Notes under the pieces: model-generated
The model's input: only the letters and a program-made list of their open reading frames with translations
Database searches by the model: none
What the model was told of the DNA's origin: nothing
Translations under genes and position numbers: made by a program
Assembly: GCA_020438215.1 (NCBI GenBank)
Contig: JAGQUX010000007.1
Location: 29,275 to 86,617 of the forward strand
Length of the DNA stretch: 57,343 nucleotides
Source: Armatimonadota bacterium
GTDB lineage: Bacteria; Armatimonadota; Fimbriimonadia; Fimbriimonadales; Fimbriimonadaceae
Direction of reading: 5' to 3'
Shown: positions 29,782-38,139 of the stretch, in pieces
How positions within the stretch are numbered: position 1 is the first letter of the stretch
Layout: every line of letters starts with the position of its first letter

Positions 29782-30621
29782 TTAGGCGCGTCGCCGTCGA
29801 CGAGCAACCAACCCAGCCAAACCAGCAATAGCAAACAAGGTCATTGGCTCAGGAACCGGATCAATGCCGGTCACATTGTAAATGGACTGCGCCAGAGTTG
29901 GAGTAATCGCCGCGTAATAGTTGAAAGCGCCGTATTGCTCAAACTGCCCGCCCGAAAGCACGCCCCAAATCTGACCACTATCGGTGAGCAGCATGGAACC
30001 GCTATCGCCTGGAGCACCGAATCCTTCAACTGGTCGTGCGCCATTAGTTGGTGAATTAAAGAGGTCAACAAGTTGAAGCTGCGACTCACCACCAAACGAT
30101 GCCGTTCGAGTGCTGTGCAAAGCAGTTTGCATTCCTCGGCGGCGCTCATCGAATCCGTAGCCACCACCCAATGAACCTTCAGCACCATGTCCACCATATC
30201 CGGCAGAATCCAGGTTTGCACCAACCGTAAAGATCCCCGTCGTGCTAAGCGTCGGAGTGAATACGCTTCGATTCCACCCATTGATTTTGAAAACAGAAAC
30301 ATCCGCACCCGCAAAGCCGATGGCTTGCGAAATCGCATAGCTCCCTCCATCCTCAAAAGTGAAAGAACCAGTCTCGCCGGAAGTAATCACGTGCTTGGCA
30401 GAAATACCCCACGCCTGACCTCCCGTTCCAATTCCAAGAAATGTCCCTGTCCCAAAACCGCCACCGACATTGACTTTGCCGACACCTTGGAAACGAGCTC
30501 CAGCTCCGTAGTTGAGCACCGTGGTCTCAGAAATGTCGTTGCGCCAAACAATGGCAGAGCTGGTAACCGGCAGAACCGCCAATAAGCCAACCCCAAACAA
30601 TAGCTTTTTATTCAAATTCAT
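29782..30621 (-). CDS. Trypsin-like serine protease with PEP-CTERM sorting signal
   Basis: The 279-residue protein has a signal peptide (MNLNKKLLFGVGLLAVLPVTSSA). A chymotrypsin-fold triad is visible: His77 in GISAKHVIT (AKH in place of AAH), Asp107 in GADVSVFKI and Ser207 in GAPGDSGSM. After the protease domain comes DPVPEPMTLF, a hydrophobic helix and the tail ARRRRRA, the PEP-CTERM signal. It would be an exosortase-processed, envelope-anchored or matrix-released protease. The domain is short (~190 residues), typical of bacterial trypsin-like proteases. It may cleave surface or matrix proteins; substrate unknown. Confidence 0.82.
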   Translation of the reverse strand: MNLNKKLLFGVGLLAVLPVTSSAIVWRNDISETTVLNYGAGARFQGVGKVNVGGGFGTGTFLGIGTGGQAWGISAKHVITSGETGSFTFEDGGSYAISQAIGFAGADVSVFKINGWNRSVFTPTLSTTGIFTVGANLDSAGYGGHGAEGSLGGGYGFDERRRGMQTALHSTRTASFGGESQLQLVDLFNSPTNGARPVEGFGAPGDSGSMLLTDSGQIWGVLSGGQFEQYGAFNYYAAITPTLAQSIYNVTGIDPVPEPMTLFAIAGLAGLVARRRRRA

Positions 30622-30727
30622 CTCCTAAACAAAACTTCTTGCAAGAAAGTCCCTGTAAGAAGTAAGCGGATTTTACTTGGTAATGCAATTGATTTTGACC
30701 CAGTATTTTTCCCGGGCGAAGTGCTTT

Positions 30728-30982
30728 TCATCTCGGGAATTTGTGAGAATAGAAACGCCATGCAAAACCGATATGGCTCAGAACCAGCAGGGCGACGCCG
30801 ATTCGAACCCACACCTGGCTCGTTAGGAAGAAGGCAACGATAAATAAGAGCCATTCCAGCACATGGATGGGGCTAATAAAGCGGTTCGACTTGATCGCCC
30901 GAATCTCAATGATGCGATTGTAGACATACCAAAAAATGAGAATCCCGAGCGCTACATAACTGTAATACTCCTGCATTCCCAT
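30728..30982 (-). CDS. Small hypothetical membrane protein
   Basis: An 84-residue protein with hydrophobic helices at about 8-23, 42-57 and 59-74 and a short basic end. ATG 30982 lies two bases after the stop of the 125-residue gene, so the two are almost certainly cotranscribed. No family was recognised. Confidence 0.6.
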   Translation of the reverse strand: MGMQEYYSYVALGILIFWYVYNRIIEIRAIKSNRFISPIHVLEWLLFIVAFFLTSQVWVRIGVALLVLSHIGFAWRFYSHKFPR

Positions 30983-30984
30983 TG

Positions 30985-31362
30985 CTACAAAGCCCTCGTG
31001 ATCAATTTGTAGGTCACTTCTTCCAGTTCACCGTCCTTGAAGATCAAATACCCGATGATTTCGTTGCGGAAAGTCGTAAACCCTTTACTGGGAGCGGTCA
31101 CATCAAAGCTGTAATATATTTCATTACCGCGATCTTCTTTGGAGAGTCCCAGGTCAATTTGCTTTGCAGAAGCCAAAACCTCGTCTTCGTGAAGTTTTTT
31201 ACCTGCATCAAGCCCTGACTCCAAGTCTAGGATGTAATGATATTCCTTATGCAATTCCCTGAGGCTTTGCTTCCAAGAAGTAATCAGCATGTAACTGAGC
31301 ATGGCAACGCCGAACATCAGCGTCATGGAAACAAATATTTTCTGTACTGGTGTAATCCTCAT
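30985..31362 (-). CDS. Hypothetical membrane-anchored protein
   Basis: 125 residues, with one N-terminal membrane helix (about 9-28) and a polar remainder that mixes helix and beta strands (KQIDLGL, YYSFDVTAP, IIGYLIFKDGELEEVTYKL). The rest probably lies in the periplasm. ATG 31362 has no strong ribosome site. It forms a two-gene unit with the small membrane protein downstream. Function unknown. Confidence 0.6.
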   Translation of the reverse strand: MRITPVQKIFVSMTLMFGVAMLSYMLITSWKQSLRELHKEYHYILDLESGLDAGKKLHEDEVLASAKQIDLGLSKEDRGNEIYYSFDVTAPSKGFTTFRNEIIGYLIFKDGELEEVTYKLITRAL

Positions 31363-31415
31363 ATATAAATCAATTTACATAGAAGTCTCCTTAGATGCAA
31401 TGCATCTTGTATTGG

Positions 31416-31769
31416 CTAGTAATACTTCATTATCCTGTAAGCAATAGGAACGTCCTTGTAATAGTAGATCGACCCTCCTGCAATCCTGCGAAAAACGCCC
31501 CATGCTCTTGGGAGTTCCTTTTCAAAGCCTAACGTATATAAATCCCCATCTGCAGATCCACCATATTCATACTCACCGACTAGGACATCCTCAGCAAACC
31601 GAGGATCTAATCCTTTTTTGATAATGCTCTCACAAATTTGTCTCGTGTGCTCCACCTCTCCTAAGTTCTGCGAAACCGCATACTGCCCAATGCAAATAAA
31701 GCTCAGTATCGCTATGCAAGCCCCCTGAATCGCAATGACAGCAGACTGTTTTTTCGACTTCTCACTCAT
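31416..31769 (-). CDS. Hypothetical membrane-anchored protein
   Basis: ATG 31769 (GGAG upstream) is preferred over the in-frame start at 31802. The 117-residue product has one N-terminal membrane helix (about 10-33) and a polar domain with Cys, Tyr and Gly in an extended region (YEYGGSADGDLYTLGFEKEL). It lies 53 bases upstream of the 125-residue gene and resembles it in layout, so the two may be distant relatives. Function unknown. Confidence 0.55.
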   Translation of the reverse strand: MSEKSKKQSAVIAIQGACIAILSFICIGQYAVSQNLGEVEHTRQICESIIKKGLDPRFAEDVLVGEYEYGGSADGDLYTLGFEKELPRAWGVFRRIAGGSIYYYKDVPIAYRIMKYY

Positions 31770-32100
31770 TTCCACACTCCATTTTTTACTTGGACTGAGC
31801 ATACTGCTGTCCTCATATATAGTCAGCTGACCACTCTCTAATTTTGTTTCGATCCAAGTGTACAGTTTTGTTTACGCTACAAAGTAGAAAATTGTTTACT
31901 GTGGTGAATCTATTTGCGCCACCTATTCCTGCAAATAGGACATCCCAAATGTAATTGCTTCAAAAAGGAATCCCGGCTTGAGTCTGTTTTCACGAGATTT
32001 ATATACACAAGTTGCTATGACACAAAATGGACTGTACTCACCGTATTTGATGTCATAGGTGAGTGTTGGGATTTGCCAGACAATGTATCTCTGCTTACGT
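31770..32100. other. AT-rich stretch without a supported gene
   Basis: About 330 AT-rich bases. Short frames on both strands (31914-32108 plus, 31923-32126 minus) show no family features and overlap each other. It may hold promoter sequence for the gene at 31416-31769 or decayed sequence. Nothing else is supported. Confidence 0.4.
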
Positions 32101-32475
32101 TTACCTGATAACAGAAACCAATTCATTTTTTGGATCCATGATTCGGATTACGGCACCAAGGAGTAAACCTAAAATCATGAATTCATGAAATGTGTTTGTT
32201 GAGAAGGCACTGTCAGTATCAGCATGGAAGTATATCTGCTGATCAACTTCACTCTTGGATCGCAGGACAATCCGATCGATTTCAGACTCGATCGTTGCAC
32301 AAAGTAGAGATGCACTCTCTAAATTTGGTTCACACTTAGCCACATGATCGCAATAATGGTGAAGGACTAAGAGCTCGTTCTCCTTAAATCAGTTGAAGAA
32401 TTTTCGTGCTTCTTTTGGCTCAAGTGCCCGAAAGGGCTTGGTCAAAGGAACTTCAAAGTTGCTGGCATTTGACAT
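32101..32475 (-). pseudogene. Small gene interrupted by an in-frame TGA
   Basis: ATG 32475 is preceded by AGGTGAG at a good distance and opens MSNASNFEVPL... After 28 codons an in-frame TGA (32391-32389) stops it. The same frame continues with codon-like sequence (FKENELLVLHHYCDHVAKCE...) to the stop at 32101, so the full frame has 124 codons including the TGA. The surrounding residues (ARKFFN-stop-FKENE) suggest that the TGA replaced TGG (Trp). The second half ends with a hydrophobic EFMILGLLLGAVIRIM. Possible explanations are a nonsense mutation, a sequencing error, or readthrough. It lies 42 bases outside the tRNA-Val repeat. No family was recognised. Confidence 0.55.
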
Positions 32476-32516
32476 CAGTCTCACCTATTGCTACAGAAAC
32501 GCCAAAGCTCATAGAT

Positions 32517-32605
32517 TCTCCCCCAGAAAATGAATGGTGCTCGGTACTGGATTTGAACCAGTGACCCCTTCGGTGTGAACGAAGTGCTCTACCACTGAGC
32601 TAACC
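32517..32605. repeat. Left 89-bp direct repeat (attachment-site copy)
   Basis: Identical to 38047-38135 except for four bases. It contains the tRNA-Val sequence from the 3' CCA up to about tRNA position 6, plus 18 bases beyond the tRNA 3' end. Its right end diverges exactly where the tRNA 5' acceptor strand would begin. Confidence 0.85.
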
Positions 32606-32609
32606 TGGG
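32535..32609 (-). pseudogene. tRNA-Val(CAC) remnant with broken acceptor stem
   Basis: The D, anticodon and T arms match the intact tRNA-Val at 38065-38139, with one base change in the D loop. The first seven bases read CCCAGGT instead of GCTCGGT, so only about four of seven acceptor pairs with the 3' strand ACCGAGC can form. It is the duplicated 3' part of the tRNA left by element integration and is not expected to work as a tRNA. Confidence 0.85.
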
Positions 32610-32651
32610 AATATTGAGTTCAAATGTCTCTTCTGATTTGCTCTCAAATCG

Positions 32652-32666
32652 TCGAACGAAGTGCTG
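32652..32666. repeat. Inner left core repeat (15 bp)
   Basis: GAACGAAGTGCTGTT is identical to 37953-37967. Its first 12 bases equal the tRNA-Val anticodon-arm core found in both outer repeats. Likely a secondary attachment or integrase-binding site. Confidence 0.55.
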
Positions 32667-32781
32667 TTAGACGCGTCAACACTATTGTACTCGCAAAAAC
32701 AGAACTTTAAAAAGAAATTGCCCTGATGAAAGTATGTGATAAGAGTCCAGACATTGAGCGTACTTATCCTGAACCCAAGTT

Positions 32782-33588
32782 TCACACCTCAGCTTCAATA
32801 CGCATTCTGATCATATGATCAATATCCGAAGGGTTTAGTCCCAGCACGCTTTGGATGGCTCTCCGGAAATGTACTTGAGTATTGAACCCAAACTCCAAAA
32901 ACCGATGCCTGAGTTCGGTTCCTTCTTGCAGCGAAACCATGACTACTTTACGCACTCTGCAGTTCAAAACATATTCCGGAAAACCCATTCCCATTTCAGA
33001 TTTGAAGAGCCTTGAAAAGTGAAATGGTGAATACTGCAACTGTGATGAAGCTACTGCTATGGTCCACTCCCTTTCAGGATTTTTCCATACTGCCAGACAA
33101 AGCTGTTCGAGTCCACCTAAATGCCGAGCTTGTAATGGCATATAAGAACTTTCTGGGGAAACAGCTGGTAGAAGGAGTGAGTTTAACACCGTCACCAAAG
33201 ACTCCAGCGAGCTAGGAGCACTTGTACTTGAGTAATGATCGATCACTTGATTGATTTGAAGCATCTTATATCTTTCTGGCATGGCTTCAGCCACCTCTTC
33301 CCTAAATGGCATTGGCATACATGATATATCAACAGCGTGCTCCCAAAATTCAAATTCATTCTTTCCAAGGAGCATTTGGAATTTTTCATTTCCCTTGCAC
33401 AGGAATGCTTTGCCTTGTTCGATGATGTAAGAGCTACGGCTGCTTCGGATTACGGCCCTGCCTACACTAGGCTGAATAAGACAAAGGATATCTCGATTGA
33501 CTTGCAATTGCTGCAAGCAGGACTCTCCGCTACTTTTTCGCCTACAAACGCTATTAGCGCCAATTTGCCTGACTTCCGCAATCTTCAT
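32782..33588 (-). CDS. AraC/XylS-family transcriptional regulator
   Basis: A 268-residue protein. The C-terminal ~95 residues hold the double helix-turn-helix: WTIAVASSQLQYSPFHFSRLFKSEMGMG-type first HTH and an FLEFGFNTQVHFRRAIQSVLGLNP second HTH, as in AraC proteins. The N-terminal ~165 residues are a divergent sensor part with scattered Cys and no clear cupin motif. It is encoded in the tRNA-Val element and is transcribed away from the large STAND regulator. It may control element genes, but no operator was identified. Confidence 0.9.
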   Translation of the reverse strand: MKIAEVRQIGANSVCRRKSSGESCLQQLQVNRDILCLIQPSVGRAVIRSSRSSYIIEQGKAFLCKGNEKFQMLLGKNEFEFWEHAVDISCMPMPFREEVAEAMPERYKMLQINQVIDHYSSTSAPSSLESLVTVLNSLLLPAVSPESSYMPLQARHLGGLEQLCLAVWKNPEREWTIAVASSQLQYSPFHFSRLFKSEMGMGFPEYVLNCRVRKVVMVSLQEGTELRHRFLEFGFNTQVHFRRAIQSVLGLNPSDIDHMIRMRIEAEV

Positions 33589-33700
33589 CTCTCATAGTCC
33601 CCAATTTGAAAGGTGCACCAAGAAGTGCAGCTCAACTAATCAAAGTCGCTCTCTCCCTTGCACTCTTGGGCACCTTGTAGGAACTCATAAGAAAGATGAT

Positions 33701-34075
33701 TTAGGGACTAATGACGACATCTTCAAGGATGTTCGCAGCATACAGGGCATCTGCATGAGAGGAAAAAACTATTACATTGGGTGTCCCTGGCCATCCCAGT
33801 TTTCCGCTCTCAGTTGCATTGACTGGCCCCGTGAGTTCCAAAATCCAGGTTGGGCTTCCCGAAAGTAAGTCTGCTTTCAGGGCTTCAATCGAACTGCTGG
33901 AGTAATTTTCTGCATTGGCTTCCACGAAGGCAACGAAAGCTCCCCATGTTGCAGGCACAGAACTCACCTGTCGAAGGCTTGTATCTAATCGAATGGCCGT
34001 ATTGCTGTCATGCGACGCAAGCGCACTAGCCGCTGGGACATTGACCAAAGTCAGTGCAAAGAGGATGTTTCTCAC
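33701..34075 (-). CDS. Small exported protein of unknown function
   Basis: A 124-residue product with a signal peptide (MRNILFALTLVNVPAASALA, cleavage about residue 20) starting at GTG 34075. The mature ~104 residues have no Cys and an ALKADLLSGSPTWILELTG segment of alternating helix and strand. It shares direction with the AraC gene, 112 bases upstream of it, and is divergent to the STAND regulator with an 85-base shared promoter region. No family was recognised. It could be a secreted signal sensed by the neighbouring regulators, which is speculation. Confidence 0.6.
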   Translation of the reverse strand: MRNILFALTLVNVPAASALASHDSNTAIRLDTSLRQVSSVPATWGAFVAFVEANAENYSSSSIEALKADLLSGSPTWILELTGPVNATESGKLGWPGTPNVIVFSSHADALYAANILEDVVISP

Positions 34076-34160
34076 GTCGATCAGGATTGCGCAGGTGATT
34101 TTTCACTTAGGTTTCACTTCGAGCAGCTAAGCACTTCACATTGGAATCTGTCAAAATAGT

Positions 34161-37058
34161 GTGTTGAAAACTTTCCGGGAAGAACCCACTTGGAATCTTA
34201 GGCTCTTTTCAGGCTATAGGCTGTGTAGCCCAGGTGGAGACGATGTTCATTCACGAAGTAAGGATCTGGAGCTGCTTTTATCCTTGCTTGCTTTTTCACG
34301 TGATCACGTCCAATCTCGTGAGCAAATCGCTACCGCCATCTATGGTGAACCAGGATCAACAACAGAAAGACGCCTTGCAGTTCTTCTCTCAAGAACAAAA
34401 AAAAAGCTAGTGAAGCATGGAAATTGCTTCATTCGCTTTAATCCAGATCATGTGTGGCTCGATCTCAACCTAATCAAAGTTGATCTAGCCAGAATTTTTG
34501 ACTGTATCGATGACATTTGTGAAAATAGCGACGATTTTTGTCGTACAAACGAACTCATTGATGAGATTGGGGAACTGAGTGGGACGATAAATGCAAGCAA
34601 TGCTACAACTGGCGTTGCTCGCACAATCGAAGGCTTCCAAGAAAGATTGGCTCGACGTATTCGCGAAAAACTGACTCCGAGCCTTGGGCCCGGCTACTCT
34701 ACTTCACTATGTGCACTCTTAGACACGCTTAACATCCCCTGTGAGTTACCGTCAATAGTTTGTCACTTATTGGAAATTTATGGCGAGCTTGGCGAATCAA
34801 CGATGGCGCACCATGTGCTATGCGCCCATGAAGACTATCTAGAATCCGAGTTTGGTGAGGCAGTTTCAAAAAAGGTGCTAGAAACCTATGAGAGCACGAT
34901 CAAAAAGAGTGCTGCCGATGAGGTAATTGCATGTAAGGCCTACGAGCCGCAGAAAAAAAATTTCTCAATTGGCTTCAACACTGCAATCAGCAACATTACT
35001 GATCAGATAGTCACTGGTGGCAAGAACCAATCTATTTGCGTTTATGGCCCAAGTGGCTCTGGAAAGAGTCACTTCCTATCCGATTTGTATCATGGCCTCA
35101 AACCGTTGTGTACAGTTCTCTGCGTAGATTTAGCGACAGGATTGTCAGGGAAAACAGCGATGCTTGGAAGTATTTCGGACACGGACGTGCTTCTTGTCGA
35201 CAACTTTTGTGCTGATAACTTAGCCGACTTCAGAGCATTACTGCAGATTTCTCAACCCAAACATCTGATTTTCACCTCATACAAAAAGGATGAGTTGTTC
35301 AACGCTGTGAACACCCCAATTCCATTGCTTTCTATAGGAAACAGACTCAATGAGGGGCCCGCGGTCAAGCTTTTTGAGCATTACTTCGGCACCAATTTTG
35401 ATGATCTCCCAACTCTTAGCAAACGGAAAATAGTCGAAATCATTGACTATTGTAATCAAACTCCATCTTCTATCAAAGCCACCGCTATAAAGTGCCGTGA
35501 AGTTGGCTTAGACATCGCACTAAATTCGATCAAACTTCAGCCCGGCTCTTGGAATCATAACCAATCGGATCAACATTTTGAAGATTTGTTAGATCAAAAC
35601 CTAACAGCACAACAAGTCAAGGTTTGTCAATGTATCCTTCGAAGTTCCAATAAACTCATTCCGACGATGATTGATTCACTCCCAGAAATCCCCTCGGAGT
35701 CTGTCATCGAGTTAGTCCAACTTAGGGTTCTCAAGTCGACTGAGTCGGGAATTGTCTCTGTGAACCCTAGTTACCGAATGTACTTCGAAAACGACTTTAG
35801 ATTCCAAGTTGATCCCACTGTTTGGCAGATTCATTTTCGTGATCTAGCACATTGGGCTTCAAGACTTTCGATAAGCGCTAACAAAGATCCGCTGATTTAT
35901 GAGCACTTAGACGTATTCTGGAGCCCAATAGAATGGCTTTTGGACGATGATGATCGGTTGTTGGCGGTGAGGCTGTTTTCGGATATATCCACCTGGTTCG
36001 GATCAATGCCGGTGCCAGATCGCTTGACTAGCCGCTTTCAGTTGATTCTGCACAAAACTGAAATTAAATCTCACGCAGACTGGGGGCAACTTGCATTAGC
36101 CGTAGGAAGAGCTCTGTTTGCATCTGGAAAATACAATGAAATGGGTTCACTCTACGATTTCGTGCAATCTTCAGACCGATTCAAACATTTGCCAACTGAA
36201 GTCTTGTGCAGTCTAAGTGTTATCGGTTCAATTGCACACACTTGGCTCAATGAATTCGAAATCGCAGAAACAATTCTTCTTGGGATCAAGGACAAAGTTC
36301 AACGAAAAGATCTCTTACTTAGAATTTACTTTAATTTAGGATGTGTTGCCGAACGTGCCGATAACCTTGAAGAAGCACTGAAGTATTACGAATTGGCTTT
36401 CACGCACTACGACGAAAGTCACGATCCAAGATTAATGGCTTTCAATTCAATTGGGGCATTAAGAAATCGATATAAATTACATGGCCAAAGTGAAACCACT
36501 CTTAAAAGTTGCAAGAGCCTTCTTACTGACGCTAGACTACTCAAAGGAAACGAAATTCGATCCATGATCTTGGGTGATATTGGCATAATCCAGATTGAAG
36601 CCAATCAAAGCTTGGAGGCGATTGGCTACCTATCAATGAGTCTTCTTTACCTGTTCAGCGTCAGCACAACCGGTGAAGTAACTGGAAGATCCAGGCTCTA
36701 TATTATTGGGCTAATTGAGGCTCTCGATAGTGTCAAAGACACTGCGTATCGTGATTTGCTTTCTACGATCAAGGATTGCTTTGATTTGCTGTTGAGCTCC
36801 AAACAAGACGAAGCATATAAGGATCTGGAGTATCTCAGGAAACTCATTGCTGAAGTTTCGCTTCAGCTACTAAAAAGCTATCCAGAAAGCGAAATTGTTA
36901 GCTCAGAATCGTTTAAGTATCTTCAAAATGACTGCCCTTTACTCAATCACTCCTCGCTCCTGGACAGCCCATTAGAAGTATGTGTCGACATGTTCAAAGG
37001 ACATTGTCGAAAGTACGCAGATGTATCAGAATCAATAGCAAATGAGATTCGGTCTTAA
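34161..37058 (+). CDS. AfsR/SARP-like STAND ATPase regulator with TPR repeats
   Basis: This 965-residue protein starts at GTG 34161. Residues about 12-105 form an OmpR/SARP-type winged helix (AFSRDHVQSREQIATAIYGE then RRLAVLLSRTKKKL). Residues about 107-255 resemble the helical BTAD region. A STAND-type ATPase follows, with Walker A GPSGSGKS (296-303) and Walker B DVLLVDN (342-348). The C-terminal ~300 residues are helical repeats of the TPR kind (NLGCVAERADNLEEALKYYELAF). Such proteins switch transcription after ligand binding to the repeat region. Codon use is AT-richer than in flanking genes, consistent with transfer. Target genes are unknown. Confidence 0.82.
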   Translation: MLKTFREEPTWNLRLFSGYRLCSPGGDDVHSRSKDLELLLSLLAFSRDHVQSREQIATAIYGEPGSTTERRLAVLLSRTKKKLVKHGNCFIRFNPDHVWLDLNLIKVDLARIFDCIDDICENSDDFCRTNELIDEIGELSGTINASNATTGVARTIEGFQERLARRIREKLTPSLGPGYSTSLCALLDTLNIPCELPSIVCHLLEIYGELGESTMAHHVLCAHEDYLESEFGEAVSKKVLETYESTIKKSAADEVIACKAYEPQKKNFSIGFNTAISNITDQIVTGGKNQSICVYGPSGSGKSHFLSDLYHGLKPLCTVLCVDLATGLSGKTAMLGSISDTDVLLVDNFCADNLADFRALLQISQPKHLIFTSYKKDELFNAVNTPIPLLSIGNRLNEGPAVKLFEHYFGTNFDDLPTLSKRKIVEIIDYCNQTPSSIKATAIKCREVGLDIALNSIKLQPGSWNHNQSDQHFEDLLDQNLTAQQVKVCQCILRSSNKLIPTMIDSLPEIPSESVIELVQLRVLKSTESGIVSVNPSYRMYFENDFRFQVDPTVWQIHFRDLAHWASRLSISANKDPLIYEHLDVFWSPIEWLLDDDDRLLAVRLFSDISTWFGSMPVPDRLTSRFQLILHKTEIKSHADWGQLALAVGRALFASGKYNEMGSLYDFVQSSDRFKHLPTEVLCSLSVIGSIAHTWLNEFEIAETILLGIKDKVQRKDLLLRIYFNLGCVAERADNLEEALKYYELAFTHYDESHDPRLMAFNSIGALRNRYKLHGQSETTLKSCKSLLTDARLLKGNEIRSMILGDIGIIQIEANQSLEAIGYLSMSLLYLFSVSTTGEVTGRSRLYIIGLIEALDSVKDTAYRDLLSTIKDCFDLLLSSKQDEAYKDLEYLRKLIAEVSLQLLKSYPESEIVSSESFKYLQNDCPLLNHSSLLDSPLEVCVDMFKGHCRKYADVSESIANEIRS

Positions 37059-37116
37059 TTCAAGGTCAATCTAAACGCTAAATCAGTAGTTAGTTCATAC
37101 AGCACACAAATAATGA

Positions 37117-37491
37117 TTAGCTGTGGGGTTCAGACTTGTCGATACCCAGTTGCCCCATCTTCTCGATCGCCAAAGCCAGGTCATTAAGTATGTCTGCTAC
37201 AAGGTCATTTGGATCTGGAAGATTCTCGCTGTCTCCCAGGCTTGCGTCCTTGAGCCATGTGATGTCGAGGTATGCCTTATCTCGCTCAATAACTTCGTCA
37301 TATGTGAACTCCCTCCTTCGCCCTTCAGGATTGCCCTCAGACCAAAGCGGCTTGCGGTCAGGTCGATTCTTGGGGTTGTAACACTCGACAAACTCATCTA
37401 AATCTTCTCTTTTCAGTTGCCTGGTGTTGAGAGTGAACTCCTTGTTTGTCCTAAGGTCGTAAATCCAAATCGAGTTCGTCCAGGGCTTCAT
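37117..37491 (-). pseudogene. hsdM: Remnant of HsdM (type I restriction-modification methyltransferase), C-terminal part
   Basis: The ~124-residue frame from ATG 37491 (MKPWTNSIWIYDLRTNKEF...) matches the conserved C-terminal segment of N-6 DNA methylases of type I systems: IWIYDLRTN, EDLDEFVECYNP, RDKAYLDITWLKD, LPDPNDLVADI. The catalytic NPPF domain is absent and no hsdS or hsdR follows. It is therefore a 3' fragment. Its upstream end merges into the truncated recombinase reading frame, so a deletion joined the two genes. It shows that the element once carried a restriction-modification system. Confidence 0.75.
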
Positions 37492-37972
37492 CCCTAAGCG
37501 GTTGTCTCGACTTTCTCGCCGCAACAATCAGTGCCGTAATCTGTTCTTCTGTGAGAGGCTGGATTTGGTCTGCACGATGAACGGGTGAGCGAAGCTTTTC
37601 CATTGGTGAAGCATCTATGTGTCCTTCTTCTTCAAGGAAACGAAAGAACGTGCGCAGAATGCCAAATATGTCTTTGACTGTGCGGCTACTCACTGGGGAA
37701 TTGAGCGAGGGGTTACCCCATCGACCATTTGGTGAATTATGGCTTGCACCGACATACACAAAGAACCGCCTCATCACTTGAGGATCTATGTCAGTGATTC
37801 CTTCTTGTTCAATCCACCAAAGGAATTTGCCGGTGAAGTGTTGTCGCAATTCTATCGTGCGAGGACTCAGCTGACGATATTCGCAGTCAATGATCCACGC
37901 ATCCAAGAGTTCTGGAAGGTTTTGTGTCGAAAATGTAGGGTCAGTTTTTTCTGAACGAAGTGCTGTTGACAA
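37451..37972 (-). pseudogene. Truncated tyrosine recombinase (integrase), N-terminal part only
   Basis: The first ~165 residues are a typical SAM-like core-binding domain of phage/XerD-type integrases: LLDAWIIDCEYRQLSPRTIELRQHFTGKFL, then VSSRTVKDIFGILRTFFRFLEEEG and LTEEQITALIVAARK, where the catalytic domain should begin. After RDEAL the frame runs into the hsdM remnant and stops at 37451. The catalytic R-K-HxxR-H-Y residues are absent, so it is inactive. TTG 37972 is the start; its first codons lie on the 15-bp attachment core (37953-37967). Confidence 0.78.
37953..37967. repeat. Inner right core repeat (15 bp)
   Basis: Identical to 32652-32666 and sharing its 12-bp core with both outer tRNA repeats. 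It overlaps the first codons of the integrase remnant. Confidence 0.55.
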
Positions 37973-38046
37973 AGGATTTGCTCATCTGTAATTCAGTCTT
38001 GGAGAGCCAAAACCAGAAGAGATGTGTAGAATTTGAACCCAAAATC

Positions 38047-38135
38047 TCTCCCCCAGAAAACAGATGGTGCTCGGTACTGGATTTGAACCAGTGACCCCTT
38101 CGGTGTGAACGAAGTGCTCTACCGCTGAGCTAACC
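38047..38135. repeat. Right 89-bp direct repeat (attachment-site copy)
   Basis: Matches 32517-32605 with four differences. It spans the tRNA-Val gene from 18 bases past the 3' end to near its 5' acceptor, so it is the reconstituted attachment site. Confidence 0.85.
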
Positions 38136-38139
38136 GAGC
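38065..38139 (-). tRNA. tRNA-Val(CAC)
   Basis: The minus strand folds into a normal cloverleaf: acceptor GCTCGGT/ACCGAGC, D stem GCTC/GAGC, anticodon stem CTTCG/CGAAG with loop TTCACAC (anticodon CAC), T stem ACTGG/CCAGT with TTCAAAT loop, discriminator A and encoded CCA. It reads GTG codons. It lies 51 bases after the stop of the S41 protease gene on the same strand. The tRNA 3' end is the integration site of the adjacent element. Confidence 0.95.

Follow-up and report, generated by a model that had tools for sequence, protein, structure and literature searches.

A decayed tyrosine-integrase genomic island very probably occupies a tRNA-Val(CAC) locus of an Armatimonadota bacterium

Genomic islands that target tRNA genes with the help of a tyrosine integrase are collected in the Islander set, in which island lengths range from 2 to 200 kb (PMC4383910). 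In the literature on Armatimonadota and Fimbriimonas we found no description of tRNA islands in this bacterial order, which we take only as a lead. Here we analysed a 57,343-nt stretch of DNA from an Armatimonadota bacterium (referred to as the window), in which a 5.5-kb element targeted to tRNA-Val had been predicted from the sequence. The prediction is supported by a direct repeat, a foreign interior, an integrase fragment and relatives at the same tRNA, and we are highly confident that a tyrosine-integrase genomic island inserted into tRNA-Val(CAC) here and has since decayed to a remnant. The coordinates of its features are collected in Table 1.

The element is bordered by an 89-nt direct repeat, the copies of which are spaced by 5530 bp and are 96% identical with 4 differences, in line with the borders that had been predicted. 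ARAGORN recognised a tRNA-Val(CAC) in both copies: a normal one of 75 nt at the integrase-proximal end and an odd one of 70 nt (32539-32608) at the distal end. According to an alignment with relatives, the distal tRNA retains 4 of the 7 acceptor pairs, such that the expected combination of one intact and one acceptor-damaged tRNA was indeed obtained. The displaced copy and the intact tRNA have the same orientation and the intervening DNA lies between them, which is the arrangement of an island. The repeat block comprises tRNA positions 5-75 together with 18 bp of 3' flank and thus exceeds a bare tRNA gene. Elsewhere in the genome the repeat sequence matched only tRNA-Val(GAC), at 87%, and a tRNA-Thr; this tRNA-Val(GAC), the one further tRNA-Val of the genome, is located on a separate contig.

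Table 1. Features of the element, given in positions of the window.
Feature	Position	Strand	Basis
Left att repeat copy, distal; pseudo-tRNA-Val with 3 of 7 acceptor pairs gone	32517..32605	(-)	ARAGORN, repeat alignment and alignment with relatives
Distal-end copy of the 12-mer GCACTTCGTTCA, 1 mismatch, 77 bp from core copy	32653..32664	(-)	
AraC-family regulator	32782..33588	(-)	Pfam HTH_18, E 2.6e-11
Small protein, divergent from STAND gene; signal-like N-terminus, conserved GxGWP motif	33701..34075	(-)	
STAND-like regulator: OmpR-type DNA-binding domain, P-loop ATPase, TPR	34161..37058	(+)	
HsdM C-terminal part, ~120 of ~490 residues, joined to int across ~4-bp microhomology	37117..37485	(-)	
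Tyrosine integrase (int) N-terminal part, ~164 residues, SAM-like domain, without catalytic domain	37481..37972	(-)	Domain search; alignment with relatives
Exact copy of the anticodon-arm 12-mer GCACTTCGTTCA in int codons 4-7, 154 bp from core copy	37952..37963	(-)	
Right att repeat copy, integrase-proximal	38047..38135	(-)	Repeat alignment
Intact tRNA-Val(CAC), regenerated target at integrase-proximal end	38065..38139	(-)	ARAGORN; alignment with relatives

The integrase fragment starts 92 bp 3' of the intact tRNA. It can be aligned gap-free with the first 164 residues of intact tyrosine integrases from other genera of the family, with identities of 55%, 54% and 51% for the related genomes G028, G009 and G075, respectively. 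In these relatives none of the catalytic motifs (R, K, HxxR, H, Y) begins before position 172. They thus lie past the end of the fragment, which contains none of them. The broken integrase that had been predicted beside the intact tRNA is therefore found in its place, but it is more than broken, since the entire catalytic domain is absent. Of an intact tyrosine integrase the element holds only the N-terminal 164 residues, for which reason we file it as a remnant rather than as an active island. With the whole catalytic domain missing, one would not expect a 5,530-bp circle to form. The other recombinases of the genome are distant and only Xer-like.

At 37481-37485 the integrase reading continues as the C-terminal ~120 residues of HsdM, a type I methyltransferase (PADLOC MTase_I, E 1.5e-28); these residues are 61% identical to HsdM of Desulfobulbaceae and related genomes. 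Both sides of the joint have ~4 bp in common, and to judge from the sequence the joint looks as would be expected for a deletion by illegitimate recombination. The hsd genes considered in the original prediction are thus represented by a remnant, but by just this C-terminus, which is all that the element contains of a type I restriction-modification set (hsdR, hsdM, hsdS). None of the five genes between the repeats matched conjugation or virion genes, such that the element has the hallmarks of neither an ICE nor a prophage.

Full-length relatives of the element with an intact integrase, which the prediction had suggested to look for, occupy this tRNA in other genera (G028, G009 and G075). Their integrases, as well as the frameshifted one at the tRNA-Val of G008, are 51-56% identical relatives of the window integrase, and each is located 3' of a tRNA-Val(CAC), from which its int start is separated by 92-93 bp. 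The G028 island (L142) measures 11.7 kb and is flanked by two tRNA-Val(CAC) copies. The intact integrase adjoins one of them and a DUF3854 gene the other, and a ThyX-domain gene, a C5 methylase gene and a trio of CARF, ORC-CDC6-like and HD-CE genes are situated between these ends. The genes of the trio are consecutive (L142 10731-14646) next to the C5 methylase gene, and the row looks like a defence system. A third tRNA-Val(CAC) is found directly outside the island. G075 carries a 15.0-kb island (L180) with the same ends, which contains a type III restriction-modification-like pair and a DUF2130 gene. For G009 both island ends are present, on two contigs, and the distal flank matches that of G028 over 40 bp. 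The cargo of the intact relatives looks like putative defence genes. In both intact islands the DUF3854 (Toprim-like) gene is situated just inside the distal tRNA copy (L142 6015-8264, L180 2761-5010); it is possibly a replication gene of this island family and is missing from the window element. A 48% identical relative of the G028 integrase was furthermore found in G079 beside a tRNA-Ala, of which a 3' fragment lies 5.5 kb off; the 5.5-kb island-like interval at this tRNA-Ala(GGC) extends over L181 3580-9147, and the element may represent a sister clade with a different target tRNA. Plasmid records contained no integrase more than 60% identical to that of G028.

An empty tRNA-Val site was found in congeners, as had been anticipated for relatives. 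G002-G006 possess a single syntenic tRNA-Val(CAC) without an integrase, and its neighbours on one side, or on both, are shared with the window. Three sister species of G028 likewise have one syntenic tRNA-Val, with no integrase beside it. The comparison covered congeners and the sister species of G028, i.e. genomes of other species, and from the genus-mates of G075 no empty site was obtained. Since the local gene order of the congeners differs from that of the window, the empty site is syntenic rather than base-for-base. A trypsin-like gene separates the S41 peptidase gene from the tRNA in G002-G004; it is located beyond the tRNA in the window and directly follows the S41 gene, without a tRNA, in G007. 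By eye, the 3' flanks of the congeners did not align with the left flank of the element. In the window the trypsin-like protein (29782-30621) carries a PEP-CTERM tail, and its location relative to tRNA-Val varies among the congeners.

The DNA between the repeats is compositionally foreign. Its GC content of 44.3% is lower than that of all 82 other, overlapping 5.4-kb segments (48.9-53.6%), and its tetranucleotide distance is 0.295 compared to no more than 0.185 in the rest of the window. A stretch at 30621-32517, to the left of the distal tRNA copy, has a GC content of 42.4% and contains four small ORFs, for which no family matches were obtained where scanned. This stretch is missing between the trypsin-like gene and the S41 gene in G007 and is possibly an older insertion. 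An island that is larger than 5.5 kb, in which these low-GC small genes at 30.6-32.5 kb would stem from an earlier or a tandem integration into this tRNA, is conceivable though rather unlikely. In addition to the GC content it would agree with the adjacent position of the trypsin-like and S41 peptidase genes in G007, ~140 bp apart and without a tRNA. However, no third att copy was found, with only a 9-base match near 30.71 kb, and the same genes are otherwise arranged in G002-G004.

The ends of the 5.5-kb island share a short motif with the target tRNA. In five related elements an exact copy of the anticodon-arm 12-mer GCACTTCGTTCA is found at int codons 4-7, at a distance of 154-155 bp from the core. 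At the distal end the 12-mer occurs with mismatches 77-79 bp from the core; for G028 and G075 a similar motif, read from the sequence, is positioned at ~79 bp. The middle 12-mer of G028, G009, G008 and G075 is absent from the window element. The 15-mer ACAGCACTTCGTTCA was present in only 4 of 61 genomes, always at int. Outside of this 15-mer the conserved residues have an identical codon in 22%, and from this background (0.22) the chance of five identical codons in a row amounts to ~5e-4. The 12-mers near both ends are probably additional, putative integrase-binding sites. We do not propose the match between int start and target tRNA as a general rule: in the sole other case, the tRNA-Ala of G079, only six bases are shared. 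A plausible core site would be the anticodon stem CTTCG/CGAAG around its 7-base loop. One D-arm base distinguishes the two copies in the window, G028 and G009, being C proximally and T distally; the third, outside copy of G028 likewise has C. This pattern would place the exchange 3' of the D-arm. The 12-mer within the opening int codons provides a testable prediction on site recognition by this integrase family.

The predicted regulator cargo, an AraC regulator, a STAND protein and a small exported protein, is present but constitutes a separate conserved cassette that also occurs elsewhere in related genomes. The small protein has 124 aa, its signal-like N-terminus being judged by eye. In the 965-aa STAND-like protein the P-loop GPSGSGKSH can be read in the sequence; Trans_reg_C (E 1.4e-4) and TPR (E 1.3e-4) matches are both below the Pfam cut-offs, and there is no BTAD match. 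The order of the AraC, exported-protein and STAND genes is the same at four other loci within the genus (twice in G005, and in G006 and G007). The exported-protein/STAND pair, always divergent, is also found in G018, G019, G023, G030, G073, G085 and G086, and the divergent pair thus occupies 12 loci in 11 genomes. At the cassette and pair loci of other genomes no tRNA-Val was found, which shows that the cassette is independent of the island and not a marker of it. In G075 and G026 the exported protein occurs alone.

Due to its OmpR-type DNA-binding stretch, the P-loop ATPase and the TPRs, the STAND protein would most likely control transcription of the divergent exported-protein gene, a role that we favour with moderate confidence. 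It does not belong to the RRNPP peptide receptors, as its DNA-binding domain is OmpR-type and not an XRE-type HTH. The similarity of its TPR region to peptide receptors is weak (E 0.003-0.009 only with NprR chains) and is only a lead. A search for relatives of the exported protein among solved structures gave none (best E 0.69), and phage records gave no match for the STAND protein. We consider it quite improbable that the cassette is an undescribed signalling module of this order, in which the exported protein or a peptide derived from it is sensed by the STAND TPRs and which was picked up by the tRNA-Val island. It is very improbable that the STAND protein acts as an Avs-like anti-phage protein in a still working defence island. 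This would match the restriction, methylase and CARF genes of the intact relatives as well as a weak Avs2 hit of the STAND protein (E 0.0085), but the hit is limited to 72 residues of the ATPase stretch, short of a full-length Avs, the N-terminus is an OmpR-type DNA-binding domain, and outside tRNA-Val islands the gene is paired with the AraC and exported-protein genes. The exported-protein/STAND pair represents a conserved, unstudied regulator-target candidate.

A simple tRNA-Val duplication with drift of one copy and unrelated genes in between, which the original prediction had named as the refuting alternative, is extremely unlikely: tRNA duplications are common and the G028 island has a third tRNA-Val(CAC) just outside, but duplication fails on the 18 bp of non-tRNA 3' flank in the repeat, on the foreign interior and on the integrase fragment 92 bp from the tRNA, an arrangement that intact relatives build elsewhere.

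For the decayed island we propose the following course. The integrase would have recombined the tRNA copy of the island with the chromosomal gene at the anticodon arm, with the CTTCG/CGAAG stem as site and the loop as overlap, assisted by putative extra binding sites at the GCACTTCGTTCA copies near both ends, one of them in the first int codons. Such an exchange would leave an intact tRNA next to int and move the old 3' part to the far end, where it would be joined to the island-borne 5' part. A later deletion across the ~4 bp of shared sequence would then have removed the catalytic domain of the integrase and most of hsdM, together with any genes that lay between them, after which self-excision would no longer be possible. 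The AraC/exported-protein/STAND cassette is probably still expressed, with the regulators most likely controlling the divergent exported-protein gene.

These results define, for this bacterial order, a tRNA-Val island family whose cargo is putatively defensive, and the window presents one island that died by deletion with its regulator cassette kept. The G028 island resembles the window element in its integrase (55% identity), the tRNA, the distance to it, the 12-mers and the two tRNA copies. It differs by the intact integrase and its ThyX-like, CARF/ORC-CDC6-like/HD-CE, C5 methylase and DUF3854 genes, and it lacks the AraC/STAND cassette. The G075 island (integrase 51% identical) has a distal tRNA copy that likewise retains 4 of 7 acceptor pairs, but its integrase is intact and its genes are of the type III restriction-modification-like, DUF2130 and DUF3854 types. 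With the SARP regulator AfsR (PMC10936776), the STAND protein has in common the DNA-binding N-terminus, the nucleotide-binding domain and the TPR region; it differs in lacking a BTAD match, in Trans_reg_C and TPR matches below cut-off and in the pairing with a divergent exported-protein gene. Compared to the Islander islands (PMC4383910), the element has the same intact tRNA, the displaced copy in the same orientation, the island in between, the integrase at the regenerated tRNA and a length within their range, whereas its integrase lacks the catalytic domain and its tRNA block spans positions 5-75 instead of the 3' half only. The window element belongs to a known type of mobile element and is inactive.
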